Assembly (NCBI RefSeq): GCF_017875275.1
Contig: NZ_JAGGML010000001.1
Span: forward strand, 3,431,001-3,495,000
Direction: 5' to 3'
Source of the DNA: Xanthobacter flavus
GTDB taxonomy: Bacteria > Pseudomonadota > Alphaproteobacteria > Rhizobiales > Xanthobacteraceae
Length of the DNA: 64,000 nucleotides
The notes below the pieces were generated by a model. That model was not told the DNA's origin. It did not search any database and worked only from the letters and a program-made list of their open reading frames with translations. Positions 24,351-48,474 of this stretch are shown piece by piece. The number at the start of each line of letters is the position of its first letter. The first letter of the stretch is position 1. The translations under genes were made by a program, and so were the position numbers.

Positions 24351-25295
24351 TCATCCCTTGATCTTGGCAACTTCGGCCTTGAGCTCGGGGACGGCCTGGA
24401 AGATGTCCGCCGCCAGACCGTAGTCCGCCACCTGGAAGATGGGGGCTTCCTCGTCCTTGTTGACGGCGACGATGACCTTGGAATCCTTCATGCCGGCGAG
24501 ATGCTGGATGGCGCCGGAGATGCCGAGGGCGATGTACAGCTCGGGGGCGACGACCTTGCCGGTCTGGCCCACCTGCCAGTCGTTCGGGGCATAGCCCGCG
24601 TCCACCGCGGCGCGCGAGGCGCCCACCGCCGCGCCCAGCGCGTCGGCGAGGGGCTCGATCAGCTCGGCGAACTTCTCCCGCGAGCCCACCGCGCGACCGC
24701 CCGACACGATGATCTTCGCGGCGGTCAGCTCGGGACGGTCGGAGGCGGCGATGGCCTCGTCCACGAAGGTGGAGAGCGCCGGGTCGGACGCCGCGCCAAC
24801 GGTCTCGATGGCGGCCGAACCGCCCTCGCCGGTGGCGGCGAAGGAGGCGGTGCGCACCGTCACCACCTTCTTGGCGTCATTGGACTTCACGGTCTGGATG
24901 GCGTTGCCCGCATAGATGGGCCGCTCGAACGTGTCGGGCGAGACCACCTTGGTGATGTCCGACACCTGCATCACGTCCAGCAGCGCGGCGACGCGCGGCA
25001 GCACGTTCTTGGCGCTGGCGGTGGAGGGGCCGACGATGGCGTCGTAGCCGGGCGCCAGCGAGACGAGCAGCGCCGCCAGCGGCTCGGCGAGGCGGTGCGC
25101 ATAGAGCGCGTCGTCGGCGAGCAGCACCTTTTCGACGCCGGAGAGCTTCGCGGCGGCCTCGGCCACGCCCTTGGCGTTCTGGCCGGCGACCAGCACATGC
25201 ACCGGCGCGCCGAGCGCGGCGGCGGCGGTCAGCGCCTTGGCGGTGACGCCGTTGAGGGCCGAATTGTCGTGTTCGGCAATGAGCAGAACGGCCAT
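24351..25295 (-). CDS. etfA: Electron transfer flavoprotein alpha subunit
   Basis: The 314-residue FAD-binding subunit passes electrons from acyl-CoA dehydrogenases to ETF:ubiquinone oxidoreductase. The C-terminal FAD domain shows [42 protein letters not shown] and the end [32 protein letters not shown] (split here for length), all diagnostic. The start ATG overlaps the etfB stop (TGATG), so the pair is co-translated. It is the distal end of a 17-gene operon containing an acyl-CoA dehydrogenase, indicating a dedicated electron acceptor. Confidence 0.95.
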
Positions 25296-26044
25296 CAGAT
25301 CACCCCCGCCTCATCCTTGAGCTTCGCCACCAGCTCGGCGACCGAGCCCACCTTCACGCCCGCCTTGCGGCCGGCCGGCTCCTGGGTCTTCAGCACCTCC
25401 AGCCGCGGGGCGACGTCCACGCCGTAATCGGCCGGCGTCTTCTCGGCGATGGGCTTCTTCTTCGACTTCATGATGTTGGGCAGCGAGGCGTAGCGCGGCT
25501 CGTTGAGGCGCAGGTCCGTCGTGACGATGGCCGGGCCGTTGAGCTTGATGGTCTGCAGGCCGCCGTCGATCTCGCGGGTGACGACCACGCCGCCGTCTTC
25601 CACCACGACCTTGGACGCGAAGGTGGCCTGAGGCCAGCCCAGCAGCGCCGCCAGCATCTGGCCGGTCTGGTTGCAGTCGTCGTCGATGGCCTGCTTGCCG
25701 AGGATCACCAGGCCGGGGGCTTCCTCGCCCACCACGCCCTTGAGGATCTTGGCGACCGCGAGCGGCTCGACCACGCCGTCGGTCTTCACCAGAATGCCGC
25801 GGTCGGCACCCATGGCCAGCGCCGTGCGCAGCGTCTCGGACGCCTGGGCCGGGCCGATGGACACCGCCACCACCTCGGTCGCCTTGCCGGCTTCCTTGAG
25901 GCGGAGCGCCTCTTCCACCGCGATCTCGTCGAACGGGTTCATGGACATCTTGACGTTCGCGAGCTCGACGCCCGAACCGTCCGACTTCACCCGGACCTTC
26001 ACGTTGTAATCCACCACCCGCTTAACGGGCACCAGGATCTTCAT
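25295..26044 (-). CDS. etfB: Electron transfer flavoprotein beta subunit
   Basis: The 249-residue subunit starts at ATG 26044, with AAAGG upstream. Family segments are [39 protein letters not shown], the AMP-binding [20 protein letters not shown], and [12 protein letters not shown]. It forms a heterodimer with EtfA. The start overlaps the stop of the CoA lyase gene (ATGA), tying ETF expression to the catabolic operon. Confidence 0.95.
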
Positions 26045-26880
26045 GGCTGTCGCCTTTCGGAGGACCAAGAGACTGTGGCGCCGGCCTGCGGCGCGGCCAG
26101 CCGGCCGAGGAGCGCGCGGGCGCGGATGCGGACCGGTTCGTCCACCATGGTGCCGTCGACGGCCGCGGCTCCGTCGCCGCTGGCGAGCACCTTGCGTGCC
26201 CAGGCGATCTCGGCCTCGTCCGGGGCAAAGCCGTCCCGGATCGGCGCAACCTGTCGGGGATGGATGGCAAGCTTGCCGCCGAAGCCAAGGTCACGGGCAT
26301 GGCGCGCGTCGTCCACAATCGCCTCGCGATCGTCGATGGCCGTGGTGACGCCGTCGATCGGCGGCGCCAGTCCGGCGAGCCGCGAGGCGAGCACGAGCTC
26401 GCTGCGCGCCGCCAGCAGGGCGTCGCGCCCATGGGCGCAGCCGAGGTCGGCGCAGAAATCGATGCTGCCGAAGGCGAGACGCGCCACATGCGCCGTCTGC
26501 GCGATCCGGCGGGCATCGGCGAGCCCGCGCGCCGTCTCGATCAGAGCGATCACCGGGACGGGCGCGGCGGCGCACAGGGCTGCAAAGGCCTCCCCGACCT
26601 CGGCTTTGGGCACCATGACGGCGGCGAACGCGCGCCCGGCGAGGGCGGCCATGTCGGCGGCGTGCCACGGCGTTCCGAGGCCGTTGACGCGCACCAGCAC
26701 GGGCACCGTCGCGAAGTCCGCGCGCAGGGCGGCGCGCGCCGCATCCTTGGCGGGCGCCGCCACCGCGTCTTCCAGATCGAGGATCACCGCATCGGCCCCG
26801 GCATCCGCCGCCTTTGCGAAGCGCTCCGGGCGGTTGGCGGGCACGAACAAGGCAACGGTGAAAGCGAGCGGCGCACCCAT
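26041..26880 (-). CDS. HpcH/HpaI (CitE-like) CoA-ester lyase
   Basis: The 279-residue protein starts at ATG 26880. It carries the CitE-family pattern: [83 protein letters not shown] and [20 protein letters not shown]. Mg-binding Glu and Asp are present. Family members cleave malyl-, citramalyl- or citryl-CoA, usually giving acetyl-CoA. With the adjacent hydratase gene, whose stop overlaps its start, it could hydrate and then cleave an unsaturated CoA ester, as itaconyl-CoA hydratase plus citramalyl-CoA lyase do. That parallel is inference. Confidence 0.85.
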
Positions 26881-27734
26881 CACCAGGAAGCCTCCGCAGC
26901 CATGCACACCGGGCCGCCCTCGCGCGCGGTCCACAGCTTCAGCCCCTCCCCATCGGCCGTCGCATGCAGAGAGAAGGTGTCGGTGTCGAACAGCGGCGAG
27001 AGACCGCGGAAAGCGAAGCGGCGGGGCGGCGCGCCCCGGATCTCGGCGGCATAGGTGCACAGGAGCGCCGCCTGCATCGGCCCCTGCACGACGAGGGCCG
27101 GATAGCCCTCCACCTCGGTGGCGTAGGGCCGGTCGTAGTGGATGCGATGGGCGTTGAAGGTCAAGGCGGAGTAGCGGAACAGCAGCGGCGTGCCGGCCGT
27201 CATGGGCTTCACGAATGCGCCCCTCTCGGCAGCCGGTGGCACCTTTCCCGCCGCTCCGGCATCGGCACCGCGATAGACGATGTCCTGCCGCTCCTCGATC
27301 ACCAGCGCGTCGTTCGCCTCCACCCGGTGCGCGACGGTGACGAAGCACAGCGGGCCGGTGCGCCCCTCCTTCAGCGCCACGTCGGCGATGCGGGACACCC
27401 GCCGCACCGCATCGCCCACCTTCAGGTCGCCGTGAAAGGTCAGCGCGCCGCCGGCCCACATGCGCCGGGGCAGCGGCACCGGCGGCAGGAAGCCGCCGCG
27501 GGCGGGATGGCCGTCCGCACCAAGGCCCGCGGTGGGAACGGCCGGCTGCGCGAGGCAGAAATGGATGAGCTGCGGGACCGCCGCGCCATGGGTCGGCGGT
27601 GCGCCGGGCAGGTCGAACATGGCGTGGTATTTGCGCGCGAGATCCTCGCTGAGGACTTCGGCGCCGGTATCCTCGCGGCCGATCCAGGATCTGAGGTGAT
27701 CCATGTCGATCACAGCGGAGTCGGGCGCGGCCAT
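26880..27734 (-). CDS. MaoC/HTD2-type (FAS1-like) acyl-CoA hydratase
   Basis: The 284-residue protein resembles mesaconyl-C4-CoA and itaconyl-CoA hydratases with two hot-dog repeats. It shows GGFLPPVPLPRRMWAGGALT, RVSRIADVALKEGRTGPLCF, LLFRYSALTFNAHRIHYDRP (catalytic Asp/His type motif, N-x-H-R-I-H-Y-D) and YPALVVQGPMQAALL. The FRYSALTFNxHRIHYD motif is diagnostic of this family. It is translationally coupled upstream to an acyl-CoA dehydrogenase and downstream to the CitE-like lyase by 1-base overlaps. The natural substrate is not known. Confidence 0.82.
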   Translation of the reverse strand: MAAPDSAVIDMDHLRSWIGREDTGAEVLSEDLARKYHAMFDLPGAPPTHGAAVPQLIHFCLAQPAVPTAGLGADGHPARGGFLPPVPLPRRMWAGGALTFHGDLKVGDAVRRVSRIADVALKEGRTGPLCFVTVAHRVEANDALVIEERQDIVYRGADAGAAGKVPPAAERGAFVKPMTAGTPLLFRYSALTFNAHRIHYDRPYATEVEGYPALVVQGPMQAALLCTYAAEIRGAPPRRFAFRGLSPLFDTDTFSLHATADGEGLKLWTAREGGPVCMAAEASW

Positions 27735-28888
27735 CAGTAGGACCTCGGCATGCCGAGCACATGCTCGGCCAGATAGGACAGGATGAGGTTCGTGGAGATC
27801 GGCGCCACCTGGTAGAGCCGCGTCTCGCGGAACTTGCGCTCCACGTCGTACTCCTCCGCAAAGCCGAACCCGCCATGGGTCTGGATGCAGGCGTTGGCCG
27901 CCTCGAAGGACGCGTCGGCGGCCAGCATCTTGGCCATGTTGGCCTCGGCGCCGGGATTCTCCCCGGCCTCATAGAGCCGGATCGCCTCCCGCACCATCAG
28001 TTCGGCGGCGCGCATGTTGGCGTAGGCCTTGGCGATGGGGAACTGGATGCCCTGGTTCTGGCCGATGGGACGGCCGAACACGTGCCGCTCCTTCGCATAG
28101 GCAGACGCCTTGTCGATGAACCATTTGGCATCGCCGACGCACTCGGAGGCGATGAGGATGCGCTCGGCATTCATGCCGGAGAGGATGTAGCGGAAGCCGT
28201 TGCCCTCCTCGCCCACCAAATTCTCCGCCGGCACCCGCACATTGTCGAAGAACACCTCGGTGGTGGCGTGGTTCATCATGGTGCGGATGGGGCGGATGGT
28301 GAGCCCCGCCTTCAGCGCCTCCTGCATGTCGAGGATGAACACGGAAAGCCCCTCGGTGCGCTTCGCCACCTGGTCGCGCGGCGTCGTGCGGGCGAGCAGC
28401 AGCATCAGGTCGGATTGCGCCGCACGGCTGGTCCAGATCTTCTGGCCGTTCACCACATAATGGTCGCCCTCGCGGCGGGCGGTGGTGCGCAGCGCCGTGG
28501 TGTCGGTGCCGCTGGTGGGCTCGGTCACGCCGAACGCCTGCAGGCGCAGCTCGCCCGAGGCCACCTTGGGCAGGTAGCGCGCCTTCTGCTCCGGCGAGCC
28601 GTGCCGCAGCACCGTGCCCATCACATACATCTGGGCATGGCAGGCCGCGCCGTTGCAGCCCTGCCGCTGGATCTCCTCCATGATGACCGCGGCTGCCGAC
28701 AGCGGCAGGCCGGCGCCGCCGTATTCCTCGGGGATCAGCGCCGAGAGGAAGCCGCTCTCGGTCAGCGCCGTCACGAACTCGGTCGGATAGGCCATCTCGC
28801 GATCGAGCTTGCGCCAGTATTCGCCGGGAAAGCCGGCGCACAGCTTGGCGACGGCGTCGCGGATGTCGGAATGGTCTTGCTGCTGCAT
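27734..28888 (-). CDS. Acyl-CoA dehydrogenase with IVD/LCAD-type catalytic Glu position
   Basis: The 384-residue FAD enzyme introduces a double bond in an acyl-CoA and feeds EtfAB. ATG 28888 has TGAGG upstream. Motifs: LIPEEYGGAGLPLSAAA, FGVTEPTSGTDTTALRTTA, WTSRAAQSDLMLLLART, FGRPIGQNQGIQFPIA and IQTHGGFGFAEEYDVERKFR. At the usual C-terminal position the catalytic Glu of YEGTS is replaced (LYQVAPIST). Instead Glu242 lies in GMNAERILIAS, matching the alternative base of isovaleryl- and long-chain acyl-CoA dehydrogenases. This favours a branched or bulky acyl chain. Confidence 0.88.
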   Translation of the reverse strand: MQQQDHSDIRDAVAKLCAGFPGEYWRKLDREMAYPTEFVTALTESGFLSALIPEEYGGAGLPLSAAAVIMEEIQRQGCNGAACHAQMYVMGTVLRHGSPEQKARYLPKVASGELRLQAFGVTEPTSGTDTTALRTTARREGDHYVVNGQKIWTSRAAQSDLMLLLARTTPRDQVAKRTEGLSVFILDMQEALKAGLTIRPIRTMMNHATTEVFFDNVRVPAENLVGEEGNGFRYILSGMNAERILIASECVGDAKWFIDKASAYAKERHVFGRPIGQNQGIQFPIAKAYANMRAAELMVREAIRLYEAGENPGAEANMAKMLAADASFEAANACIQTHGGFGFAEEYDVERKFRETRLYQVAPISTNLILSYLAEHVLGMPRSY

Positions 28889-28895
28889 CAGGGCC

Positions 28896-29774
28896 TCAGG
28901 ACTGCCGGGGCGCGGCCGCAACGGCGCGCCAGGTTTCGAAGGTGTCGTCGCCGACGGTGTCGAGCAGGGCACGCAGCGCCCTGGTGAAGGGCAGGTCGCC
29001 GGAACCAGCGCCGATGGTGAGCGCGAGGTCGATGTCCTTGCGCAGGATGGACTGGAGGTTGTCGAATTCGGCGCGCGTGGCGGTCCAGGCCGTGTAGGCT
29101 TCCGGCGCGTCCTTCGGATGGGCGGTGAAGAAGTTGCGGCCGGAGCCGGCCTCGAACACCGGAATGGCGTCGGGCAAATGGATGCCATTGTCGCCGGCGA
29201 TGCGATAGGCCTCGGCTGCCACCATCAGCGTGGTGATGCCAACCAGATTGTTGACGATCTTGGTGGCCTGCCCGGTGCCAAGCGGCCCGCAATGGAAGAT
29301 GTTGGTGCCTATGGCCTGCATGAGCGGACGCAGGCGGTCCACGTCCTCGGCGGCCCCGCCCATCATGATGGCGAGGGTTCCGGCCTTCGCCTTCACCGGG
29401 CCGCCGCTGACCGGCGCATCGACGATGCGCAGGCCGGTCGGTTCCAGCTCCTGCGCCAGCTCGCGCACGGTGTCGGGCGCGACGGTGCCCATCATCACCA
29501 GCAGCGGCTCGCGGCCGTCGATCCCCGCGCGCAGCCCCTGCTCGCCCAGCACCACGGAACGGGCCTGCTGCGGCGTGGCGACCAGTACGATCACGGCATC
29601 GCAGCCGGCGCAGGCCCGCGCCTCCTGGACGCAGCGCACGCCGAGGGCTGCGAAGGGGGCAAGGGCGTCCGGATTGCGGTCGCAGACGGTGAGGTCGAAC
29701 CCCGCCTTGTGGATGTTCATGGCCATCGGCGCGCCCATGGCGCCGACCCCGATGACGGCAACGGTTCTGATCAT
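28896..29774 (-). CDS. 3-Hydroxyisobutyrate dehydrogenase-family oxidoreductase
   Basis: The 292-residue NAD(P)-dependent beta-hydroxyacid dehydrogenase has nucleotide-binding VAVIGVGAMGAPMAMNI, substrate-binding VDAPVSGGPVKAKAGTLAIM and the catalytic Lys in GTGQATKIVNNLVGI. The family oxidises 3-hydroxyisobutyrate, tartronate semialdehyde or related acids. Inside this operon it could oxidise a hydroxylated intermediate released from CoA. Gaps are 7 bases to the acyl-CoA dehydrogenase downstream and 9 bases to the SDR upstream. Confidence 0.85.
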   Translation of the reverse strand: MIRTVAVIGVGAMGAPMAMNIHKAGFDLTVCDRNPDALAPFAALGVRCVQEARACAGCDAVIVLVATPQQARSVVLGEQGLRAGIDGREPLLVMMGTVAPDTVRELAQELEPTGLRIVDAPVSGGPVKAKAGTLAIMMGGAAEDVDRLRPLMQAIGTNIFHCGPLGTGQATKIVNNLVGITTLMVAAEAYRIAGDNGIHLPDAIPVFEAGSGRNFFTAHPKDAPEAYTAWTATRAEFDNLQSILRKDIDLALTIGAGSGDLPFTRALRALLDTVGDDTFETWRAVAAAPRQS

Positions 29775-29783
29775 GGTTCAGCC

Positions 29784-30536
29784 TCAGGAAATGGTGACGC
29801 CGCTGTCGACGGACAGGACCTGTCCGGTGACCACGCGGGCGTCGTCGCTGCCGAGATAGACCGCCATGCCGGCGATATCCCCCGGCCGGCAGGGGCCGAG
29901 AAGGTGCTGGCCGGCCAGCCGCCGCAGCTCCTCGCGCGTTTCCATCAATCCCTCGACGCGGGGCGTGAGCACGAGGCCGGGGGCGATGGCGTTCACCCGG
30001 ATGCGGTCGGGCGCATATTCGACAGCCATGGACCGCGTCATGGCCGCCACCCCGCCCTTGGCGGCGGTGTAGCAGTCGCGCTCGGGCAGGGCCATCAGCG
30101 CCACCATGGAGGAGAGGTTGATGACCGAGCCGCCGCCGGCGCGCGCCATTTCGGGGATGGCATGCTTGCAGCACAGGAACGTTCCGTAGAGGTCGAGGCG
30201 GATCACCCGCCAGAATTCCTCGTCCGGCGCCTCCGTCACGCGGGCGTCGGCCGCGCTCGATCCGCCGGCAATGTTGCACAGCACGTCGAGACGGCCGAAC
30301 CGCCCGACGGTCTGCGCGATCGCGGCCTTGACCTGCTGCGGCTCGGTGATGTCACAGACGATGCCGAGGCCATGCTCGGCGGAGCCTGCCGCCCGCAGCG
30401 TGTCGTCGAGCGCCTCGGCGCCGATATCCACCGCCGCCACCCGCGCGCCTTCGGCGATATAGCGCGCGCAGGTCTCGCGGCCGATGCCGCCCGCGGCGCC
30501 GGTGATGAATGCGACCTTGCCGTCAAGCCTTGCCAT
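29784..30536 (-). CDS. Short-chain dehydrogenase/reductase (classical, intact)
   Basis: The 250-residue SDR has TGAAGGIG near the N-terminus, NIAGGSS, NLSSMVAL and the catalytic YTAAKGG (Tyr-x-x-x-Lys), ending in QVLSVDSGVTIS. It probably oxidises a 3-hydroxyacyl-CoA or cyclic alcohol. Family members cannot be told apart by sequence alone. It lies 11 bases downstream of the OYE-like gene in the same operon. Confidence 0.88.
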   Translation of the reverse strand: MARLDGKVAFITGAAGGIGRETCARYIAEGARVAAVDIGAEALDDTLRAAGSAEHGLGIVCDITEPQQVKAAIAQTVGRFGRLDVLCNIAGGSSAADARVTEAPDEEFWRVIRLDLYGTFLCCKHAIPEMARAGGGSVINLSSMVALMALPERDCYTAAKGGVAAMTRSMAVEYAPDRIRVNAIAPGLVLTPRVEGLMETREELRRLAGQHLLGPCRPGDIAGMAVYLGSDDARVVTGQVLSVDSGVTIS

Positions 30537-30547
30537 TCCGGTCTCCT

Positions 30548-32581
30548 TCAGAGCATCCAGCCGGCGCGCTCGCCGTCGAGGATCGCCATATCCGCCTGCC
30601 GGGGCGCCAGGGCGTCGCCGACCACATGGAGTTCGACGCCGCTGCCGGCGAAGGCGCGCGCCAGCGCGTCTTCGGCCCGGTTGCCCATGGCCAGGATGAC
30701 CTCGCCGGCATGGGCGATCTGCCGCCTCGTCCCGCCGAACCGGCCTTCGTACAGGAGGTGACCGGGCCGGATGGCGGTGACGAAAGTGGCGGGAACCACC
30801 TCGACTCCGAGGGCGGCGAGCTTGCGGTAGAGGGACGGGGCATGGTGCACGGGCAGGTCGGCGCCGGCGTGCATGTGCGGCGTGACGATGGTGACCTTCA
30901 GCCCCCGCGCGGCCAGCATTTCGGCGGCGGCGGTGCCGGAAAGATGGGGATCGTCTTCAACGACCACGACTGGCCCGGTCAAGCGCTCCGGCGTCTGGAA
31001 CGCATCCCACACGGTGCGGACATGGGGCAAGTCCGCACCGGCGATGCCGTCCGCCCCCGGCCGCAGCGAGGTGTAGCCGTCCCGCCGCGGAACCGAGCCG
31101 GTGGCAACCACCAAAGCGTCGAAGCCCTCGCGCTCGATCAGGGCGCTGTCGGCCGCGGTGGAGAGGCGGATATCCACGGGAAGGCGCGCCAGCATCTCGA
31201 TCTGCCAGCGATGGATCTCGGCGAAGCCGCGGCGCGAAGCGACAGCGCTGGTCATCAGGTTCTGGCCGCCGAGGCGGGCGCTCCGCTCGAACAGGGTCAC
31301 GCGGTGGCCGCGCTCGGCCGCGATGCGGGCCGCGGCGAGGCCTGCCGGGCCGCCGCCGACCACGGCCACCCTTTTTCCCCGATCCGCGGGCCGCATCCGT
31401 CCGATGCCGATCTGTGCCTCTCGCCCCACCGCCGGATTGTGGATGCAGCCGACGCCCCGCCCGCGATCGAGGCCGACGATGCAGGACTGGTTGGAGTATG
31501 TGCAGATGCGGATGGCCTTCGCGTCACCTCGGGCTGCCTTCAGCGGCAGCTCGGGATCGGAGATGAGGGCACGGGCCATGCCGATGAAATCCGCCTGTCC
31601 GGCCGCCAGAACGGCCTCCGCCGCCTCGGGCGTGGCGATGCGCGAGCTGACGCAGACCGGCAGGCCGGAAACGGCGGTCCGGATCGCGCCGGCCTCGTGC
31701 GCGAACTGGGCGTCCGGGGCGGTGATGTCGGCGATCCAGCCGGGATAGTGCAGGGAGGTGAGGCCGCTCACATTCAGATAGCTGATCCCCTCGTTCCCGA
31801 GCCGAATAGCGATGGCGGTCGCCTCCTCGGGCGTCAGGCCGCCGGGTACGTCGTCGCGGCCGTTGATGCGGGCGCCGATGAGGAAATCCGGACCCACGGC
31901 GGCGCGGATGGCGGCGAGGCCCTCCAGCAGGAAGCGCATGCGGTTGTCCAGCGGGCCGCCATAGCGGTCCTCGCGCCTGTTGGTGGCGGGGGAGAGGAAT
32001 TCGTGCAGCAGATAGCCCTGCGCGGCGAACAGTTCGACCCCGTCGGCGCCCGCCGCCTTCAGGTTCAGCGCCGCCTCCACCATGGTCCCGACATACTCGG
32101 CGATGTCCCCCTCGGTCATTTCCTTCGGGATCTCGCCGGTGCGCGGGCAGGGCAGGGGGGAGGGCGCCAGCAGCGGCACGCCGTATTGGGTCGTGCCGGG
32201 CGAGCGCAACTGCCGCCCGCTCATGTTGAGCTGGGAGACGAAGCAGGCCCCTTCCGCCTTGATGGCGTCGATCATCCGCCGGTAGTGGGGCTGCAGCGAC
32301 GCGTCATTGGCAAGGTCGAGGCCGCCCAAAGGCGAGGTTTCAAGCGCCCCGCCCCAGGTGGCGAGCCGGCGCCAGGACGCCGGCATCAGGAAGTTGGACA
32401 TCACGATGAGGCCCGCCCCGCCCTTCGCCCGCTCCACGTGATAGGCAATGGTGCGGTCGATGGCCGAGCCGTAGCCGCCCCCGAACATCACCGCGTGCGG
32501 CATCATGGCGATGCGGTTGCGCAGGGTGACGTGGCCGATGGCGAGCGGGCTGAGAAGCCGCTCGTAGGGGGCGGGCGCCAT
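30548..32581 (-). CDS. 2,4-Dienoyl-CoA-reductase-like NADH:flavin oxidoreductase, one Fe-S ligand missing
   Basis: The 677-residue two-part enzyme has an OYE barrel ([54 protein letters not shown]) followed by an FAD/NADH domain ([40 protein letters not shown]). The family includes FadH, trimethylamine dehydrogenase and BaiCD-like reductases. The [4Fe-4S] motif, normally C-x2-C-x3-C-x11-C, reads [12 protein letters not shown] then [11 protein letters not shown]: the second Cys is Ser (codon at 31493-31495). A 3Cys-1Ser cluster or an altered one is possible. Its stop is 11 bases from the SDR start. Confidence 0.87.
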
Positions 32582-32582
32582 T

Positions 32583-37668: not shown

Positions 37669-37669
37669 C

Positions 37670-39559: not shown

Positions 39560-39566
39560 CTGCGCA

Positions 39567-40781: not shown

Positions 40782-40828
40782 GATGTCTTCCTCCCGTTAT
40801 TGCGGCGCATTTGAAGGAGCGCCCGTTC

Positions 40829-42076
40829 TTAGCTTTCGGCCTTGGTCTGCCCCTGGCCCGCGAGGCGCCCGATCTCGTCGGCGTCGTACCCCAGCGATGC
40901 GAGAAGTTCTTCTGTATGGGCGCCCAGCTCGGGCGCGGGACGCCCCTGCGCCAGCCGGCCGGCTGCGGTGCGCACCAGATTCGTGACGACCGGGGCGTTG
41001 CCGGCGGGCAGGGCCATCTCCTCGAAGAAGCCGCCGTCCCTGTTTTCGGGTGCGGCGAGCGCTTCGGCCGGAGAGAGGGCCTTGCAGGCGGGAATCCTGG
41101 CGGCCGCGAGTTCGGCGAGACATTCCTGCGAGGATCGCGCGGCGCACCACTGCGCCATCACCGCGCTCAGGGCCTCGCCGTTCTCGCCACGCAGAATGTC
41201 CGAGGAAAAGCGCGGATCCGCGGCCAGCTCCGGCTGCCCCACGAAGCTGGCCCAGCGGCGGAACATGCCGTCACCGATGACCTGCACCATCACCCAGCCG
41301 TCGCGGGTGCGGAACAGATCGGACGGGCCGGCGATGGGGCTGCGATTGCCCATGGCGGCGCGGCTGCGCGCGCCCAGCGCTTCCTCGATGAGCATCGGAT
41401 TGGTCATGGCGAGCGCGGTGCCGAGGAGGGAGGCCTCCACTTGCTGCCCACGTCCGGTTGCCATGCGCTCGTGGAGGGCGGCGAGGGTTGCGAAGGCGGC
41501 CGCGATTCCGGTGGCGTAATCCACATAGGACACCGCGGCGCGTAGCGGTCGCTCGCCGGTCCCCGTCAGGCACATGGCGCCGGAGAGGGCCTGTCCGGTG
41601 CCATCGAAGCCGATCCGGTCACGGCTTTCGCCTTGCGTGCCGAAGGCGCTGATGGTGGTGAGGACGATATCCGGCCGGATGGCGCGAAGGCTGTCGTAGT
41701 CCAGCCCGGCGCGCTTCAAGGCTGCCGGCGGCAGGTTCACCACCACCGCGTCGCAGGTGGCCACGAGCCGTTCGAAAGCGGCGCGCCCTGCGGGCTGGTC
41801 GATGTCGAGGGCGAGCGACTTCTTGTTGCGATTGACCTGAAGATAGAGCGCGCCGCGTCCGGCAACGCCGACCGGCATGACTTCGCGATCCGGTGCGCCC
41901 GATGTCGGCTCGATCCGGATGACCTCCGCGCCCTGTTCCGCGAGCAAGGCGGTGCAAAAGGGGGCCGCGATGTAGCGGCCGAGATCGAGGACACGCACGC
42001 CACGAAGGCCGCGCGGCGCACCTCCCCCCTCATCCGACACAGCCGCCTTCGCGTTGGTCTGCTTCTCTTTTTTCAC
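40829..42076 (-). CDS. Family III (CaiB/BaiF) CoA-transferase
   Basis: The 415-residue protein starts at GTG 42076, behind GAGGAAAC; ATG codons farther upstream lie in the iclR control region. Motifs: GVRVLDLGRYIAAPFCTALL, EQGAEVIRIEP, LYLQVNRNKKSLALDID, SAFGTQGE, the catalytic Asp in SYVDYATGI, and GRGQQVEASLLG. Enzymes of this family transfer CoA between acids (for example succinyl-CoA to itaconate, or formyl-CoA to oxalate). It is the first gene of the leftward operon, 47 bases before livK, and gives a second possible activation step besides the AMP-forming ligase. Confidence 0.88.
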   Translation of the reverse strand: MKKEKQTNAKAAVSDEGGGAPRGLRGVRVLDLGRYIAAPFCTALLAEQGAEVIRIEPTSGAPDREVMPVGVAGRGALYLQVNRNKKSLALDIDQPAGRAAFERLVATCDAVVVNLPPAALKRAGLDYDSLRAIRPDIVLTTISAFGTQGESRDRIGFDGTGQALSGAMCLTGTGERPLRAAVSYVDYATGIAAAFATLAALHERMATGRGQQVEASLLGTALAMTNPMLIEEALGARSRAAMGNRSPIAGPSDLFRTRDGWVMVQVIGDGMFRRWASFVGQPELAADPRFSSDILRGENGEALSAVMAQWCAARSSQECLAELAAARIPACKALSPAEALAAPENRDGGFFEEMALPAGNAPVVTNLVRTAAGRLAQGRPAPELGAHTEELLASLGYDADEIGRLAGQGQTKAES

Positions 42077-42134
42077 GTTTCCTCGCCTTTGATTTCTGCG
42101 GAAGGGGCTTCCCATCGCCGGCTTCGTTGTGTTA

Positions 42135-42160
42135 GTCATTCTCCATCTTGAATGACATTC
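42135..42160. promoter_or_regulatory. Probable IclR operator in the divergent control region
   Basis: GTCATTC (42135-42141) and GAATGAC (42150-42156) are inverted arms separated by 8 bases. GAATGACATTC (42150-42160) is itself a perfect palindrome. A further CCATTCAT follows near 42176. These half-sites lie between the divergent starts at 42076 and 42186, as expected for autoregulation by IclR. Confidence 0.6.
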
Positions 42161-42185
42161 ACAAAATTCTGAAAGCCATTCATAC

Positions 42186-43034
42186 ATGAGCGACCCAGCC
42201 GATCAAGACCCTTCGCCAAAAATCGTCGGAGCCGTGGCCAACGCCGTTTCGATCCTGAGAAGCCTGGCGCAATCGAGCGGCCCGGCCGGCGTAAATGTGA
42301 TAGCGCGTGATGCCGGCGTCAGCGTCAGCACCTGCTTCAATATCCTGCGCACGCTCTCGAGCGAGCGCCTGGTGGATTTCGATCCCGAGGCGAAGACCTA
42401 TGCCATCGGCATGGGTGTTCTGGAGCTGTCCCTGCCGCTGCTGGGCGCAAACCAGGCCAATCTCATCCGGCCCGAGCTCGCCCGGCTTTCGGCGGAGCAC
42501 AAGTGCCTGATGTGCCTGTGGCAGATCACCGACGGCGAGCGCATCGTGTTGATCGATCGCGTTTCCACGGCAAAGACGGTGCGCGTGGACATGTCGGACG
42601 GCTCGCGCCTGCCGACCTTCGTGGGCGCGATCGGGCGCTGTTATGCGGCGCTGCGCGACCTGCCCCGTGACGAACTGAAGGCCCGGTTCGACGCGCTGCA
42701 ATGGCAGTCGCCGCCGAGCTTCGAAGAATACGTGAAGGACGTGGAGCAGGCCCGCCGCGACGGCTATGCCTTCGATCTCGGCCAGTTGTTCCGCGGCCTC
42801 GAGATTGCCGCAGCGGTCGTGACCGACCCGTCCGGCAAGCCGCGGCTCGGCATCAGCGGAATTTCCATCGCCGGCCAACTGACCCGGCCGGAAATCGAGC
42901 AGCTGGGGGCCGCGCTCAGGGATTCCGCGGATTTCATCAGCGAGTCCCTGTTCGGGGTTTCGAGCGGGCTGCGCCAGAGCGAGCGCCGGCTAGCGGCCGG
43001 GCCGGGCCGCCGTGCGCGGGGAGGAAAGGCCTGA
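42186..43034 (+). CDS. IclR-family transcriptional regulator
   Basis: The 282-residue regulator has an N-terminal winged helix-turn-helix (AVANAVSILRSLAQSSGPAG, VNVIARDAGVSVSTCFNILR, LVDFDPEAKTYAIG) and the IclR effector domain (IVLIDRVSTAKTVRVDM, FVGAIGRCYAAL, GLEIAAAVVTDPSGKPRLGI). It is the first gene of the rightward operon and divergent from the leftward one, so it most likely controls both and is tuned by a CoA-cluster metabolite. Its stop overlaps the next start (TGATG). Confidence 0.9.
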   Translation: MSDPADQDPSPKIVGAVANAVSILRSLAQSSGPAGVNVIARDAGVSVSTCFNILRTLSSERLVDFDPEAKTYAIGMGVLELSLPLLGANQANLIRPELARLSAEHKCLMCLWQITDGERIVLIDRVSTAKTVRVDMSDGSRLPTFVGAIGRCYAALRDLPRDELKARFDALQWQSPPSFEEYVKDVEQARRDGYAFDLGQLFRGLEIAAAVVTDPSGKPRLGISGISIAGQLTRPEIEQLGAALRDSADFISESLFGVSSGLRQSERRLAAGPGRRARGGKA

Positions 43035-43429
43035 TGAGCGAAGGGAGCCCGGTCTGGGTTTTCGACAGTTTCCGGCCTGGCGAGCTTCTCGGCCACCATG
43101 CCATCGCGCTGGACGACGCCCGTCTCGCGGATTGGGAGGCGATCTATGGCGCCGTCGCGGCCGGTCGCTTGCCCTCCGGCATTCTCGTGGCGGCAATGAT
43201 GGAAGCCTACCTCAAGGCCTTCTCCCCCCGGCCTCCCGGCAATGTCCACGCCTCGCAGACGTTGGCCTTCGGAGACCCCGTGCAGCCGGGAGACCAGCTT
43301 GAGGCCGAGGTCTCCTGCCTGTGGAAGGAACTGCGCAAGGCCCGCCGCTGGGTCGGTTTCGGGGTGGTCCTCAAAAAGGGGGATCGCGAGGTCCTCGCGG
43401 GCGAGATCCGGACGATCTGGGCCAAGTAA
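43034..43429 (+). CDS. Hot-dog-fold MaoC-like protein without catalytic motif
   Basis: The 131-residue protein starts at ATG 43034 behind GAGGAAAGGCCTG. It shows VFDSFRPGELLGHHAIALDD and FGDPVQPGDQLEAEVSCLWK, typical of MaoC-like hydratases. The hydratase signature with Asp and His (D-x-N-P-x-H) is absent; the corresponding segment is LADWEAIYGAVAAGRLPSG. It precedes a second hot-dog gene that has the motif, so the two may make a mixed dimer in which only one chain is catalytic. Confidence 0.72.
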   Translation: MSEGSPVWVFDSFRPGELLGHHAIALDDARLADWEAIYGAVAAGRLPSGILVAAMMEAYLKAFSPRPPGNVHASQTLAFGDPVQPGDQLEAEVSCLWKELRKARRWVGFGVVLKKGDREVLAGEIRTIWAK

Positions 43430-43487
43430 ACAGGCGGCCCCGAAAGGTGTACGGGCGCCGCGAGAGCGCCGACGAAGGAAACAGCCG

Positions 43488-43916
43488 ATGGAAATGCCAC
43501 AAGACGCCGCGCTGCCGCGCGAGCTCGCCTGCGTGAGCCTCGTCGCCGACCAGGATGCAGTCGCCCGTTACGCGGAGCTGACACGGGACTTCAACCCCAT
43601 CCACCTCAACGCGGAATTCGCGGCCGGAACCAGTTTCGGACGGCCCATCGCCCACGGGACGCTGGGCCTCAACCTCGTGATCGAGGCACTGGAGCGCACC
43701 TTCGGTGCGGTCCCCGAGGATGCGCGTCTTGAAGTGCGTTTCATCGCCCCGGTGCCTGTTGGCGCGACGATCCGCGCCGGGGGCCACCTGACCGACGAAG
43801 CGACGGGCTCCTACGAGATTTTCGTTGAAACTGCCTCCGGCGAACGGGCCGTCGCAGGCACCTGCACCATCGGCGCCGCGCCAGAGATCCGGAACACGGG
43901 AGCAAGCAAGATATGA
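43488..43916 (+). CDS. MaoC-like (R)-specific enoyl-CoA hydratase
   Basis: The 142-residue protein starts at ATG 43488, with GAAGGAAACAGCCG before it. The hydratase 2 motif is complete: ARYAELTRDFNPIHLNAEFA, with Asp and His in DFNPIH, then GRPIAHGTLGLNLV. It should hydrate a 2-enoyl-CoA to the (R)-3-hydroxyacyl-CoA. The stop overlaps the start of the acyl-CoA dehydrogenase gene. Confidence 0.85.
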   Translation: MEMPQDAALPRELACVSLVADQDAVARYAELTRDFNPIHLNAEFAAGTSFGRPIAHGTLGLNLVIEALERTFGAVPEDARLEVRFIAPVPVGATIRAGGHLTDEATGSYEIFVETASGERAVAGTCTIGAAPEIRNTGASKI

Positions 43917-45070
43917 CAATGCCCGCCGTCGATGACGAAACCTTCGGCCAGCTGAAGGATGCGGTCGAACGCTTCGTCGCGGAGCGCCTCGTCCCCAATG
44001 AGATGCGCGTCGAGATCGAGGACGAGATTCCCGAGGAAATTGTTGACGAGATGCGCGAACTCGGGCTGTTCGGCCTCACCATTCCGCCGGAATACGGCGG
44101 CATCGGGCTCAATGCCCGCCAGGAAACACAGCTCGCCCAGATCTTTGGCGGCACGGCGCTAGCCTTCCGCTCGCTGCTGGCAACCAATATCGGCATCGGT
44201 GCGCGCGGCCTGATCTTCGAGGGGACCGAAGAGCAAAAGCAGGCCTATCTGCCGAAGCTCGCCAGCGGCGAACTGATGTCCGCCTTCGCCCTCACCGAGC
44301 CGGACACCGGCTCCGATCCCGCGAACCTCACCACCCGCGCCGAGCGGGACGGCGACGACTACGTGATCAACGGCACGAAGCGCTACATCACCAATGCCCA
44401 GCGCGCCGGGCTGTTCACGGTGATGGCCCGGACCGAGTTCGACAAGCCCGGTGCCGACGCCATCACCGCCTTCCTTGTGCCTCGCGATACGCCGGGCCTC
44501 ACCATCGGCAAGAAGGACCGCAAGATGGGTCAGCGCGGCACCACCACATCGGACGTGATGTTCGACAATGTGCGGGTACCGGCGAGTGCCATCATCGGCC
44601 AGACGCCGGGGCGCGGTTTCCGCCTCGCCATGCGGGTCCTCGATCGCGGGCGCATCCACATCGCCGCCCTCGCCACCGGCGCCTGCAAGCGGCTGATCGC
44701 GGAGATGATCGCCTTCGCGCGCGAGCGCAGGCAGTTCGGCAAGCCGATTGCCGAGTACCAGCTGATCCAGGCGATGATCGCCGACAGCCACACGGACTAC
44801 CTCGCCTCCAAGGCCCTCGTGGAGCAGACGGCGACGCTCTACGACCGGGACGGCGCCGCGCGCACCGAGGCGTCGGCGGCCAAGTATTTCGCCACCGAGG
44901 CGGTCGGCCGCGTCGCAGACCGGGCGGTCCAGGTACACGGCGGCGCCGGCTACATGAGCGAATATGCGGTGGAGCGCTTCTATCGCGATGTCCGCCTGAT
45001 GCGGATCTACGAGGGCACCAGCCAGATCCAGCAATTGCTGATCGCCCGCCAGTTGCTGAAGGGAGCATGA
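43913..45070 (+). CDS. Acyl-CoA dehydrogenase with normal C-terminal catalytic Glu
   Basis: The 385-residue FAD enzyme contains LTIPPEYGGIGLNARQETQL, FALTEPDTGSDPANLTTRAE, KRYITNAQRAGLF, QRGTTTSDVMFDNVRVP and VHGGAGYMSEYAVERFYRDV. The catalytic base is the Glu of RIYEGTSQIQQL, and the alternative position reads DRGRIH. It thus differs from the dehydrogenase at 27734 and probably handles another intermediate. Electrons should pass to the EtfAB encoded in the opposite operon. It overlaps both neighbours by four bases. Confidence 0.92.
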   Translation: MTMPAVDDETFGQLKDAVERFVAERLVPNEMRVEIEDEIPEEIVDEMRELGLFGLTIPPEYGGIGLNARQETQLAQIFGGTALAFRSLLATNIGIGARGLIFEGTEEQKQAYLPKLASGELMSAFALTEPDTGSDPANLTTRAERDGDDYVINGTKRYITNAQRAGLFTVMARTEFDKPGADAITAFLVPRDTPGLTIGKKDRKMGQRGTTTSDVMFDNVRVPASAIIGQTPGRGFRLAMRVLDRGRIHIAALATGACKRLIAEMIAFARERRQFGKPIAEYQLIQAMIADSHTDYLASKALVEQTATLYDRDGAARTEASAAKYFATEAVGRVADRAVQVHGGAGYMSEYAVERFYRDVRLMRIYEGTSQIQQLLIARQLLKGA

Positions 45071-45993
45071 CCATGGCCGATACACGGATGCTGGACGGCA
45101 AGGTCGTCGTCGTCACCGGCGCGGGGGGCGGCATCGGCCGCGATATCGCGCTGATGGCCGGGGCCCACGGCGCGAAGGTGGTGGTCAACGATATCGGCAC
45201 GAGCCTCGACGGGCAGGGGCGGGACGATGGTCCCGCCGCGCGCGTCGTCGCCGAGATCCGCGCCGCCGGCGGCGAGGCGGTGGCGAGCCTGGAGAGCGTC
45301 ACCGAAACCGCTGGCGCGGAGCGCATCGTGGCCCAGGCGGTCGATGCGTTCGGCCGGCTCGACGGCGTCGTGAACAACGCGGGCATCCTGCGCGACGCCT
45401 TCTTCCACAAGATGTCGGAAGACGAATGGGACAAGGTGCTGAAGGTCCATCTCTACGGCAGCTTCAACATCAGCCGGGCCGCGGCGCCGCTGTTCAAGGA
45501 ACAGCAGGCGGGCAGCCTCGTGCACATGACCTCCACATCCGGCCTCATCGGCAACCGGGCGCAGGCCAACTATTCGGCCGCCAAGCTCGGCGTGGTGGGC
45601 CTGTCAAAGTCCATCGCGCTGGACATGGAGCGCTTCGGGGTGCGCTCCAACTGCATCGCCCCATTCGCCTGGAGCCGGATGATCTCGTCCATCAAGGTGG
45701 ATACGCCCGAGCAGGAGGCCCGCGTCGCACGACTGCAGCAGATGACGCCAGCGAAGGTCGCACCCCTCGCCGTCTATCTCCTCAGCGACAAGGCCGGGCA
45801 GGTCAGCGGGCAGATATTCTGCGTGCGCAACAACGAGATCTTCCTCTTCAGCCAGCCCCGGCCGGTGCGCTCGGTGCAGCGCGACGGCGGATGGACGCCG
45901 GAGGAGATCGCCGACCACGCCATGCCCGCGCTGGCCGCCAGCTTCCATCGCCTCGATGTCTCCGCCGAGGTGTTCACCTGGGACCCGGTCTGA
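45067..45993 (+). CDS. SDR-type 3-hydroxyacyl-CoA dehydrogenase, MFE-like
   Basis: The 308-residue SDR has TGAGGGIG, NDIGTSLDGQGRDDGPAARV, NNAGILRDAFFHKMSEDEWD, MTSTSGLIGNRAQANYSAAKLG (Ser and Tyr-x-x-x-Lys intact) and a long C-terminal extension. The DIG and NNAGILRD-F segments resemble the dehydrogenase half of peroxisomal multifunctional enzyme type 2, which oxidises (R)-3-hydroxyacyl-CoA. That fits the preceding (R)-specific hydratase. The product would be the thiolase substrate. ATG 45067 or 45073 are both possible. Confidence 0.88.
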   Translation: MTMADTRMLDGKVVVVTGAGGGIGRDIALMAGAHGAKVVVNDIGTSLDGQGRDDGPAARVVAEIRAAGGEAVASLESVTETAGAERIVAQAVDAFGRLDGVVNNAGILRDAFFHKMSEDEWDKVLKVHLYGSFNISRAAAPLFKEQQAGSLVHMTSTSGLIGNRAQANYSAAKLGVVGLSKSIALDMERFGVRSNCIAPFAWSRMISSIKVDTPEQEARVARLQQMTPAKVAPLAVYLLSDKAGQVSGQIFCVRNNEIFLFSQPRPVRSVQRDGGWTPEEIADHAMPALAASFHRLDVSAEVFTWDPV

Positions 45994-46018
45994 GCCCGCA
46001 GAGCAAGGAGTTTCCGCG

Positions 46019-47215
46019 ATGCGTCGCGCTGCCATCGTTTCCCCCCTTCGCACGCCGGTCGGCCGCTTCGGAGGAGCCCTGAAGGATGTGCCCGTCGAGC
46101 GGCTGGGCGCCATTGTCGTCAATGCCATTCTCGACCGCACGGGTCTAGATCCAATGCGCGTTGACGATGTGGTCTTCGCCCAGTCCTACGCCAATTCCGA
46201 GACGCCCTGCGTCGGCCGCTGGATCGCGCTGGAGGCGGGGCTTCCGGTGGAGGTGCCGGGGATGCAGCTCGACCGCCGTTGCGGCGGCGGGCTCCAATCC
46301 ATCGCCACGGCCGCGATGATGGTGCAGACGGGCGCCTGCGACGTGGTGATCGCCGGCGGCGTCGAAAGCATGAGTGCCATCGAACACTACACCACCGGTG
46401 TGCGCTGGGGTACGCGCTCCGGCTCGCCCGTCCTGTACGACAGGCTTGATCGCGGCCGCGAGCGTTCCCAGCCCGAGCATCGCTTCGGACCCATTTCCGG
46501 CATGATCGAGACGGCCGAGAACCTTGCCCGCAAGTATCAGATCTCCCGCGAGGCGGCCGATGCCTATGCCGCGCGCAGCCAGCAGCGCGCCGCCGCGGCC
46601 TGGGGCGACGGGCGCATGGCGGCCGAGGTGGTGCACGTCGGCGTGCCGCAGAAGAAGGGGGAGGCGGTCGTCATCGATCGCGACGAGGGCGTCCGCGGCG
46701 ACACCACGGCCGATTCCCTTGGCAAGCTGCGCGCCATCCAGAAGGGCGGCACGGTGACGGCCGGCAACGCCGCCCAGCAGAACGACGCGGCCGCCGCATG
46801 TCTCATCGTGGCCGAGGACAAGCTCGCGTCCCTTGGCCTCGTGCCCGATGCCTTCCTTGTCGGCTGGGCGGCGGCAGGGTGCGAGCCGGCGGAGATGGGC
46901 ATCGGCCCCGTACCCGCCACCGCGCGGCTCATGGGGCGTGTGGGCCTCTCGCTGGACGACATGGACCTCATCGAGATCAACGAGGCCTTCGCCTGCCAGG
47001 TGCTGTCCGTGCTCAAGCAATGGCCGGGCGTGGATCCGGAGCGGGTGAACGTAAACGGCTCGGGCATCTCTCTCGGCCATCCCATCGGCGCCACCGGCGT
47101 GCGCATCCTCACCACCCTTGTCCACGAGATGAAGAGGCGCGGTGCCCGCTACGGGCTGGAGACCATGTGCATCGGCGGTGGCCAGGGCGCCGCCGCGATC
47201 ATTGAGCGCGCGTGA
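46019..47215 (+). CDS. Acetyl-CoA acetyltransferase-type thiolase
   Basis: The 398-residue thiolase starts at ATG 46019, behind AAGGAG. Nucleophilic Cys is in QLDRRCGGGLQSIATAA; the C-terminal pair is GSGISLGHPIGATG (His) and ETMCIGGGQG (Cys); NEAFACQ is also present. It cleaves a 3-ketoacyl-CoA with CoA. It follows the SDR by 25 bases and is followed four bases later by the CoA-transferase gene, which could be the last beta-oxidation step of the rightward operon. Confidence 0.93.
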   Translation: MRRAAIVSPLRTPVGRFGGALKDVPVERLGAIVVNAILDRTGLDPMRVDDVVFAQSYANSETPCVGRWIALEAGLPVEVPGMQLDRRCGGGLQSIATAAMMVQTGACDVVIAGGVESMSAIEHYTTGVRWGTRSGSPVLYDRLDRGRERSQPEHRFGPISGMIETAENLARKYQISREAADAYAARSQQRAAAAWGDGRMAAEVVHVGVPQKKGEAVVIDRDEGVRGDTTADSLGKLRAIQKGGTVTAGNAAQQNDAAAACLIVAEDKLASLGLVPDAFLVGWAAAGCEPAEMGIGPVPATARLMGRVGLSLDDMDLIEINEAFACQVLSVLKQWPGVDPERVNVNGSGISLGHPIGATGVRILTTLVHEMKRRGARYGLETMCIGGGQGAAAIIERA

Positions 47216-47220
47216 GGGCC

Positions 47221-48474
47221 ATGACGCGAGCGATCGAACTCGAGGCGCTGGAGTTCGCCGACGTCATCCTCCCGGGTGATCTCGTGTGCTGGGGGCAGGC
47301 GGCGGCGGAGCCTTTGCCGCTGACCGCCCGCCTGATGGCGCAACGCGGCCGGCTCGGCGGCTTTTCCGCCTTCATCGGCATCGGCCTCGGCGACACGCCG
47401 GACCCCGCCTATACGGACCGCGTCCGCTTCTCCTCGTTCTGCGGCACCGGGACGAACCGTCGACTCGCGGCAGCCGGCGCGCTCGACATCCTGCCGGTCC
47501 ACTATTCGGATCTTCCGGCCCTGCTCGCCAGCCGGGTGGACGTCCTTCTGCTGCAGGTGGCGGAGCACCCTGACGGCGGACGCTTCAGCCTGTCCTGCGC
47601 CTGCGACTACATTGCGCCCCTGGTGCGGGCGGCGCGGGTGGTGATTTGCGAAGTGAACCGGCAGGCGCCGTTCACCTCGGCGGAGATCGCGGCCGCCGAC
47701 ATCGACGTGCTGGTCGCCACCGACCGGGCGCTACCCGAACAGGCGCGGGCGGTTCCGACCGCGGCCGAGCAGGCCATCGGGGCCCATGTGGCCTCGCTCA
47801 TTCGGGATGGGGCGACGTTGCAGTTCGGCCTCGGTGCCGTCCCCGACTGCGTCGCCGGACTGCTCAAGCATCACCGCGATCTCGGTTTGCACACCGGCAT
47901 CCTGAGCGACGGCGCCGTGGGGCTGATCGAGGCGGGTGCCGTGACCAACGCGCTTAAGCCCATCCACCGCGGCGTGACGGTGGCGGGCACGCTGCTCGGC
48001 AGCCGCGCGCTGCTTGATTTCGCCCATCTCAATCGGGCGATCGCTTTGGAGCCGGTCAGCGTCACCCATTCGCACGCGTTGATCGCGCAAATGCCGGCCT
48101 TCACCGCCATCAATTCGGCGCTGGAAGTGGACCTTTCGGGACAGGCGAACACCGAGACCGTGGGCGGGCGCTATGTGGGCACGATCGGCGGTGCGCTGGA
48201 CTTCCTGCGGGGCGCGCGGGCGTCCGCCGGTGGGCTGCCCATCATCGCCTTGCCTTCGACGGTCGAGGCAAAGGGCGAGCGCCGGAGCCGCATCACTGCG
48301 CGTCTCTCCGGCCCCGCGACCATCGGTCGGGCCGATGCCGCCATCATCGTGACGGAACACGGCATCGCAGATCTGCGCCCGCTCACGCTCGCGGAACGGG
48401 CCGAAGCCTTGATTGCCATCGCCGATCCCGCCTTTCGCGATGACCTGCGCGAAAGGGCGCGCTCGGGCGCCTAA
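47221..48474 (+). CDS. Acetyl-CoA hydrolase/4-hydroxybutyrate CoA-transferase family protein
   Basis: The 417-residue protein starts at ATG 47221 (GTG at 47212 is in the same frame). It shows the Cat1/family I-like pattern: QFGLGAVPDCVAGLLKHHRD, TGILSDGAVGLIEAGAV, INSALEVDLSGQANTETVGG (catalytic Glu) and ITEHG-like VTEHGIADLRPLTLAERAE. The enzyme either hydrolyses acetyl-CoA or transfers CoA to another acid. At the end of a degradation operon it could recycle CoA from the final product to the incoming acid. Confidence 0.87.
   Translation: MTRAIELEALEFADVILPGDLVCWGQAAAEPLPLTARLMAQRGRLGGFSAFIGIGLGDTPDPAYTDRVRFSSFCGTGTNRRLAAAGALDILPVHYSDLPALLASRVDVLLLQVAEHPDGGRFSLSCACDYIAPLVRAARVVICEVNRQAPFTSAEIAAADIDVLVATDRALPEQARAVPTAAEQAIGAHVASLIRDGATLQFGLGAVPDCVAGLLKHHRDLGLHTGILSDGAVGLIEAGAVTNALKPIHRGVTVAGTLLGSRALLDFAHLNRAIALEPVSVTHSHALIAQMPAFTAINSALEVDLSGQANTETVGGRYVGTIGGALDFLRGARASAGGLPIIALPSTVEAKGERRSRITARLSGPATIGRADAAIIVTEHGIADLRPLTLAERAEALIAIADPAFRDDLRERARSGA

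Follow-up and report, generated by a model that had tools for sequence, protein, structure and literature searches.

The itaconate/methylsuccinate cluster of Cupriavidus necator and Pseudomonas aeruginosa unites an acyl-coenzyme A (CoA) dehydrogenase (ACAD), an itaconyl-CoA hydratase-like enzyme and a CitE-type lyase. Its dehydrogenase was assayed as a methylsuccinyl-C4-CoA dehydrogenase with mesaconyl-C4-CoA as product, and the methylsuccinyl C1 ester was called a dead end (PMC12290011). In the modified 3-oxoadipate (mml) pathway, a thiolase yields methylsuccinyl-CoA and acetyl-CoA (PMC6449761). The thn operon of a sulfate-reducing culture, involved in anaerobic naphthalene degradation, encodes ACADs and ThnP, an intramolecular CoA-transferase of the Cat1 kind with Gly instead of Glu238; OYE-type aryl-CoA reductases belong to the same field (PMC11659651). 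In the HIP pathway for the last steroid rings (EchA20, IpdAB, IpdC, IpdF, FadA6), C-C hydrolases of crotonase and CoA-transferase fold precede the thiolase (PMC5380842). Finally, beta-diketone hydrolases are found in the crotonase superfamily (ABDH, 2j5s). An active-site comparison argued that 3q1t of M. avium is one of them, since its D155, H146, E244, D144 and H44 were matched to ABDH (PMC3584854). Here we describe a block of 25 genes within a stretch of 64,000 nucleotides of Xanthobacter flavus (the window; contig NZ_JAGGML010000001.1, positions 3,431,001 to 3,495,000). The cluster is a composite of known modules, an upper and a lower one. Judged by its sequence, it has features in common with the HIP, thn, mml and itaconate systems yet differs from each.

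Concerning these differences, the acd1-fas1DH-citE cassette of the window is joined to an importer, a ligase, an OYE-type flavoenzyme, short-chain dehydrogenases/reductases (SDRs), a beta-oxidation set, a thiolase and act, whereas the MmgE/PrpD isomerase of the saprophytes' itaconate cluster (PMC12290011) has no Pfam match here. The methylmuconolactone isomerase and 3-oxoacid CoA-transferase (A/B) families of the mml pathway are not among the Pfam and NCBIfam matches of the cluster. The OYE is distant from NCR of the naphthalene field. EchA20 groups with MenB (PMC5380842) whereas Ech is EchA15-like.

We tentatively read the locus as a pair of divergent operons under IclR control for the degradation of a methyl-branched, perhaps alicyclic, carboxylic acid via methylsuccinyl-CoA, and we place this reading slightly below an even chance. 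In this scheme, each step of which is predicted by homology, the binding protein and Liv transporter (sbp, livHMGF) would import the acid and acs would form its CoA thioester, before or after the redox and C-C cleavage step. The OYE, the SDRs and hibadh would adjust the oxidation state, with the OYE presumably reducing an enone, and ech would hydrolyse the C-C bond of a beta-diketone, which for a cyclic diketone would mean ring opening. Acd2, X/MaoC, sdr3 and thl would carry out one round of beta-oxidation; in its last step, an ester like 4-methyl-3-oxoadipyl-CoA would be cleaved thiolytically into acetyl-CoA and methylsuccinyl-C1-CoA. Act, a Cat1 homologue without the catalytic Glu, would then shift CoA from C1 to C4; acd1 and EtfAB would form mesaconyl-C4-CoA, fas1DH would hydrate it to citramalyl-CoA and citE would split the latter into acetyl-CoA and pyruvate. 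The substrate is probably methyl-branched and perhaps alicyclic. Of the substrate types suggested by the original prediction, a branched or cyclic acid keeps indirect support. The analysis turns a vaguely defined cluster into claims open to assay.

The lower module may best be read as a methylsuccinyl-CoA route. By sequence, fas1DH belongs with itaconyl-CoA hydratase. Acd1 shares 62-73% identity with plasmid-encoded dehydrogenases of Bosea F3-2, Paracoccus MC1862, Sulfitobacter THAF37, P. luteola and Limimaricola, whose genes have homologues of fas1DH and/or citE in their vicinity. Acd1 lacks the usual catalytic Glu; as a Glu stands at what we take to be the isovaleryl/long-chain dehydrogenase position, the idea of a dead enzyme was dropped. 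A second locus of the same genome (G000:C1:3934000-3953900, around 3.94 Mb) carries thl-act-acd1-fas1DH-citE contiguously, with 74%, 50%, 67%, 61% and 64% identity to the cluster, respectively, with a CoA-transferase A/B pair and a binding protein encoded in the divergent direction. A piece of an ISL3-type transposase lies near this locus. Paracoccus MC1862 has 3-oxoacid CoA-transferase, thiolase, act, ACAD, MaoC and lyase with a few other genes in one run; P. luteola has a like combination plus catC, and in Acinetobacter LoGeW2-3 a like combination adjoins a DcaP porin and another beta-oxidation set. We compared 46 rows in total (a 21-row matrix and 25 further loci), a non-random set picked in part via act, OYE, ech, sdr2 or fas1DH. 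Cut-offs were 38% identity (45% for maoC, acd1 and iclR) and 60% coverage, so that weaker homologues remain uncounted. Act (at least 38%) is present in 21 rows, 12 of which also have thl and 16 of which have acd1, fas1DH or citE within the fetched stretch. Seven of the 12 plasmid act loci fetched contain thl (L159, L160, L162, L164, L165, L166 and L168) and five do not. Gene context shows the set thl, act, acd1, fas1DH and citE jointly in several loci, though not everywhere. The original prediction, which set the cluster apart from well-known phenylacetate, pimelate, leucine and plain fatty-acid clusters, implied that it has no match at all; the cassette acd1-fas1DH-citE(-etfBA) does resemble the itaconate/methylsuccinate one, with thl-act often near it.

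Act is a member of the Cat1 family I, aligning with the 4-hydroxybutyrate (4HB) CoA-transferase 3d3u at 240.7 bits. The residue corresponding to the catalytic Glu238 of 3gk7 is Gly in act and in the four close orthologues aligned, likewise in all 12 plasmid homologues examined (21 records found), while an act paralogue in the L149 locus, which shares only sdr2-acs with the window above 60%, keeps Glu. Thiolysis of 4-methyl-3-oxoadipyl-CoA would, on chemical grounds, leave CoA on the carboxyl beside the methyl-bearing carbon, so a shift from C1 to C4 would be required before an itaconate-type dehydrogenase, which the published account does not report to use the C1-side carboxyl. Act is a candidate for this missing shuttle. 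If so, it would allow 3-oxoadipyl routes with a methyl branch to proceed to acetyl-CoA and pyruvate.

In the upper module, Ech is closest to EchA15 (7m3w) and to 3q1t (315 bits each). Compared with two canonical hydratases, Ala and His replace both catalytic Glu, and an Asp follows nine residues past that His. By sequence mapping, D151, H142, E240, D140 and H40 of Ech correspond to the 3q1t set and do not vary among the 10 sequences aligned; mapped through 3q1t in the same way, the Asp/His/Glu/His set of ABDH is present in Ech. Because the hydratase glutamates are absent and the residues behind the 3q1t reassignment are present, Ech is probably no hydratase and probably cuts a C-C bond. The assignment of 3q1t likewise rests on an active-site comparison (PMC3584854). 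A homologue at E<=1e-70 occurs in 38 of 289 genomes of the class, own genome included, and His and Asp are kept in all five of those homologues checked. Should Ech hydrolyse beta-diketones, the current label enoyl-CoA hydratase would be wrong for a sizeable family.

Three plasmid loci (L211, L212 and L213), from Achromobacter A8, Paraburkholderia fungorum and Cupriavidus basilensis, have hibadh directly after ech. All three carry a CoA-transferase A/B pair that keeps the motif SENG; sdr1 and the importer are also found in Achromobacter A8 and P. fungorum, and an NADH:flavin oxidoreductase in Achromobacter and C. basilensis. We saw no acs homologue at these loci. The presence of the CoA-transferase pair without acs suggests that acs may activate a keto acid. 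Since SENG is kept, these pairs were rejected as IpdAB-like; the role of the Glu within SENG is our assumption. Concerning the OYE, the second of the four Fe-S cysteines of FadH is Ser or Gly, and the motif CTY[S/G]N is shared by the window OYE and its 10 nearest distinct homologues. The cysteine loss was rejected as unique to this OYE, because many distant homologues lack it as well.

From these parts a bolder proposal can be put together, which we consider rather unlikely. The locus would encode an aerobic route not described before: a methylated alicyclic acid would be converted into a cyclic beta-diketone, a CoA-independent crotonase would open the latter, and a Glu-less Cat1 would serve as the missing C1-to-C4 shuttle of methylsuccinyl-CoA.

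The gene order is conserved beyond the window. Named-species genomes were scanned with an OYE profile and the best 80 of 177 relatives kept; among these 80, nine have an OYE with at least 52% identity and the others with at most 38%. Five of the nine carry further cluster genes: Bosea lathyri, a Rhizobiaceae metagenome-assembled genome (MAG), Roseovarius pacificus, Pseudohoeflea and Bosea sp. ASV33. The first four, among them the distantly related Roseovarius pacificus, show nearly the same order as the window, with iclR followed by X maoC acd2 sdr3 thl act in one arm and caiB sbp livHMGF acs sdr2 ech OYE sdr1 hibadh in the other. Bosea sp. ASV33 has acs sdr2 ech OYE etfBA and a fas1DH homologue. 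Altogether, five other genomes preserve the order, with protein identities of 43-93%, although not all genes were seen in each, and this conserved order is more than chance. Within the genus, two of 14 genomes have a close OYE, namely that of the window and G011 (83%), and three others have matches at 34-38%; two of 385 genomes drawn from the class pass an OYE threshold of E<=1e-140, namely the own genome and one at 52%. Divergent or partial versions are found on plasmids, and P. hospita has acs, sdr2, ech, caiB, cupin, sdr3, acd1, acd2, thl, act, citE, fas1DH and etfBA. Homologues of X occur in five relatives and in seven of the 21 rows of the first comparison matrix, and the protein has no match in a Pfam scan. 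A literature search, with subscription papers mostly outside its scope, found no published assignment of this gene order to a substrate.

The divergent operons are predicted to be controlled by IclR. TGAATGACATTCA (42149-42161) and TGAAAGCCATTCA (42170-42182) lie 21 bases apart immediately upstream of iclR and form a palindromic site, the predicted operator. Two matches with at most one mismatch were reached in one of 100 shuffles. The block TGAAAGCCATTCATACATGA is identical in six of seven aligned genomes, the exception being Antarctobacter. In the longest caiB open reading frame (ORF), the N-terminal extension covers the operator block, and the true start of caiB is therefore probably further in. 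Near the single other exact site of the palindrome in the genome (1918591) no obviously related gene was seen, judged by eye. Gene content, conserved order and palindromic site support the original prediction of a self-contained set for uptake and CoA-dependent degradation.

Several observations weigh against our reading of the locus. Among the class loci that have an act homologue, 30 of 54 places were sequenced (own included) and 28 of the 30 carry Gly238, so it was rejected as a signature of the methylsuccinate route, and thl homologues lie beside only two of these 30 within flanks of 1.5 kb, namely at the own locus and, at 36%, at one other. Thl is likewise not found in nine of the 21 act rows. 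Glu269, the alternative Glu of ThnP (PMC11659651), is Thr or Gly in act by hand count on alignments. The best NCBIfam match of citE, RipC_Ccl, scores 162.8 bits with a cut-off of 375. At four loci (L041, L043, L044 and L045) an OYE of 52-57% identity stands without other cluster genes in the stretch fetched. The shorter cluster of G011 has an 83-residue match to acd1, and thl, act, citE, fas1DH and etf are not in the stretch fetched. Counting fetched stretches only, the five close relatives (G011, B. lathyri, whose contig stops inside acd1, the MAG, Roseovarius and Pseudohoeflea) have acd1 in two, fas1DH in two, citE in one and etfAB in none; acd1-fas1DH-citE is complete, without etf, only in Roseovarius. 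As it is patchy in these stretches, we take the cassette as a variable part of the cluster. The OYE homologue of P. hospita is a single-domain protein of 394 aa, and in the Antarctobacter stretch OYE, thl and act were not found and a different thiolase is present. AlphaFold models of Ech and Sbp (mean pLDDT 40.5 and 43.3) are too poor to use.

Among the alternatives, act might be a C-C hydrolase like IpdAB, and a bicyclic substrate would be opened twice, by ech and then by act, before thiolysis, as in the last steroid rings. IpdAB likewise has Gly at its own catalytic site in place of the catalytic Glu and acts right before the thiolase (PMC5380842), Ech resembles a C-C hydrolase, and the inventory of ligase, SDRs, flavin reductase, crotonase, CoA-transferase fold, ACADs and thiolase is like that of the steroid ring pathway. 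We nevertheless consider this explanation unlikely, as act is of the single-chain Cat1 kind, as is ThnP, whereas IpdAB is of the two-subunit kind, and as both Paracoccus MC1862 and the second locus of the own genome show act next to a simple 3-oxoacid-type route, with no ring enzymes seen.

Ordinary oxidation of a branched-chain fatty acid or an amino-acid-derived acyl-CoA would explain the branched-chain amino acid-type importer, both ACADs, EtfAB, the thiolase and the HIBADH-like enzyme. It is less probable still: neither methylcrotonyl-CoA carboxylase nor 3-hydroxy-3-methylglutaryl (HMG)-CoA lyase families are among the Pfam/NCBIfam matches of the cluster, hibadh stays under its cut-off, and ech and act lack standard catalytic residues. 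A C5 branched dicarboxylate (itaconate or methylsuccinate) as true substrate, with the other enzymes accessory, appears very unlikely. The acd1-fas1DH-citE cassette would suit it, and the best NCBIfam match of caiB is succinate-glutarate CoA-transferase, followed by formyl-CoA and mesaconate CoA-transferases, all under cut-offs. This explanation leaves no role for the ligase, OYE, three SDRs, ech, thiolase and MaoC; moreover, the MAG keeps the upper genes while the cassette was not found in its fetched stretch, and Pfam scans found no MmgE/PrpD gene in the cluster. Least probable of all is degradation of 4-methylaromatics through the modified 3-oxoadipate pathway: methylsuccinyl-CoA is the thiolysis product there (PMC6449761) and P. 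luteola has act, thl, 3-oxoacid CoA-transferase and catC together, but muconolactone isomerase, catechol dioxygenase and the CoA-transferase A/B pair are not among the Pfam matches of the cluster, and this pathway is better matched by the second own locus, which has a CoA-transferase pair.

The gene set (Table 1) was derived from an ORF listing, a composition-based gene choice and Pfam/NCBIfam scans of the window; the host genome measures 5.35 Mb in a single contig. The original prediction of 17 leftward and seven rightward genes around one IclR regulator was right in its counts, though iclR is itself the first of the rightward seven. Its gaps under 110 bases agree with the measured spacing of -161 to +105 bases; the largest ORF overlaps probably arise because some starts were assigned upstream of the real ones. 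All families it named are present, with OYE and hibadh missing from its list. Its limits hold, except that we count the cupin gene in because a cupin homologue comes after act in three relatives (L124, L125 and L126); cupins are also found in L168 and L211. The claim that key members lack standard residues is borne out for ech, act and OYE; in acd1 an alternative Glu is presumably present. Hydratases of three folds are doubtful, given a crotonase without hydratase glutamates and the single fold of the other two: MaoC and FAS1_DH share the hot-dog fold. The synteny search it proposed found the order in five other genomes and no homologous order with an assigned substrate. PDB neighbours of sbp point to no substrate.

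Table 1. Features of the cluster, in window coordinates
Feature	Coordinates	Strand	Basis and remarks
cupin (Cupin_7), 123 aa	23942..24313	-	Pfam Cupin_7 29.3 bits, cut-off 27; beyond the range of the original prediction
etfA, electron-transfer flavoprotein alpha	24351..25295	-	Pfam; near citE in L163 and L209
etfB	25295..26068	-	Pfam
citE, CitE/RipC-type CoA-ester lyase, predicted citramalyl-CoA lyase	26041..26880	-	Pfam HpcH_HpaI; start codon inferred
fas1DH, predicted itaconyl-/mesaconyl-C4-CoA hydratase	26880..27734	-	PDB 8khg, 201.9 bits
acd1, acyl-CoA dehydrogenase, predicted methylsuccinyl-C4-CoA dehydrogenase	27734..28888	-	Pfam; start inferred
hibadh, beta-hydroxyacid dehydrogenase family	28896..29774	-	Pfam; NCBIfam HIBADH 162.7, under cut-off
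sdr1	29784..30536	-	Pfam
OYE, FadH-type flavoenzyme, 3/4 Fe-S cysteines	30548..32581	-	top PDB NCR 6qkg, 254.9 bits
ech, EchA15-like crotonase, predicted beta-diketone C-C hydrolase	32583..33395	-	PDB alignment and active-site residues
sdr2	33418..34197	-	NCBIfam PRK06125 414.2 bits, cut-off 261
acs, AMP-forming acyl-CoA ligase, acetyl/acetoacetyl-CoA synthetase-like	34276..36204	-	NCBIfam matches under cut-offs
livF-type ATPase	36207..36938	-	family scans
livG-type ATPase	36928..37728	-	family scans
livM-type permease	37670..38746	-	family scans; start probably further in
livH-type permease	38586..39461	-	family scans
sbp, periplasmic binding protein	39567..40781	-	family scans
caiB, family III CoA-transferase	40829..42187	-	Pfam CoA_transf_3 370.3 bits; true start probably well inside
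predicted IclR operator	42149..42182	.	palindrome and conservation
iclR regulator	42186..43034	+	family scan
X, small protein preceding maoC, probable partner subunit	43034..43429	+	conservation; start inferred
maoC hydratase	43488..43916	+	family scan; start inferred
acd2, canonical acyl-CoA dehydrogenase, YEGT kept	43913..45070	+	family scan and alignment
sdr3	45067..45993	+	family scans
thl, thiolase	45956..47215	+	NCBIfam PRK06205 651.2 bits, cut-off 551
act, Cat1-type CoA-transferase homologue, Gly for catalytic Glu238	47212..48474	+	PDB alignment

Regarding the flanks, the analysis considered but did not establish a simple island with an empty insertion site. In two close relatives, G001 and G009, no more than 3 kb separates the flanking blocks, whose order is permuted, and the only exact direct repeats found between the junctions were of 12 bases. 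The segments 20092-22627 and 50126-53073 of the window are neighbours in opposite order, cluster-free, in both genomes, and a tRNA-Gly lies at 22497-22571. This suggests that the cluster was gained or lost in a rearrangement. In G011 (L034) and Pseudohoeflea (L124), the cluster adjoins genes that we named by eye as HpaBC-like monooxygenase, flavin reductase and MarR; these cassettes were not counted as part of it, because they are 38-47% alike, as compared to the 50-93% that most core genes reach with the window. Two genomes share, at opposite cluster ends (L038:13796-16219 and L124:10348-12801), a transketolase/pyruvate-dehydrogenase-E1-like gene that is 64% conserved and accompanied by an Lrp-type regulator, again named by eye. 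Directly after act, 48636-49937 encodes a 433-aa NmrA-like protein with a third-position GC of 0.70, lower than its neighbours. At 50126-52234, an OmpA-type gene, present in 13 of the 14 genomes of the genus, adjoins a gene whose resemblance to ZorA is very weak (23 bits, under cut-off). On the other side, 23251-23823 encodes a 190-aa piece that matches only the C-terminal part of LysR regulators and is possibly a truncated regulator.

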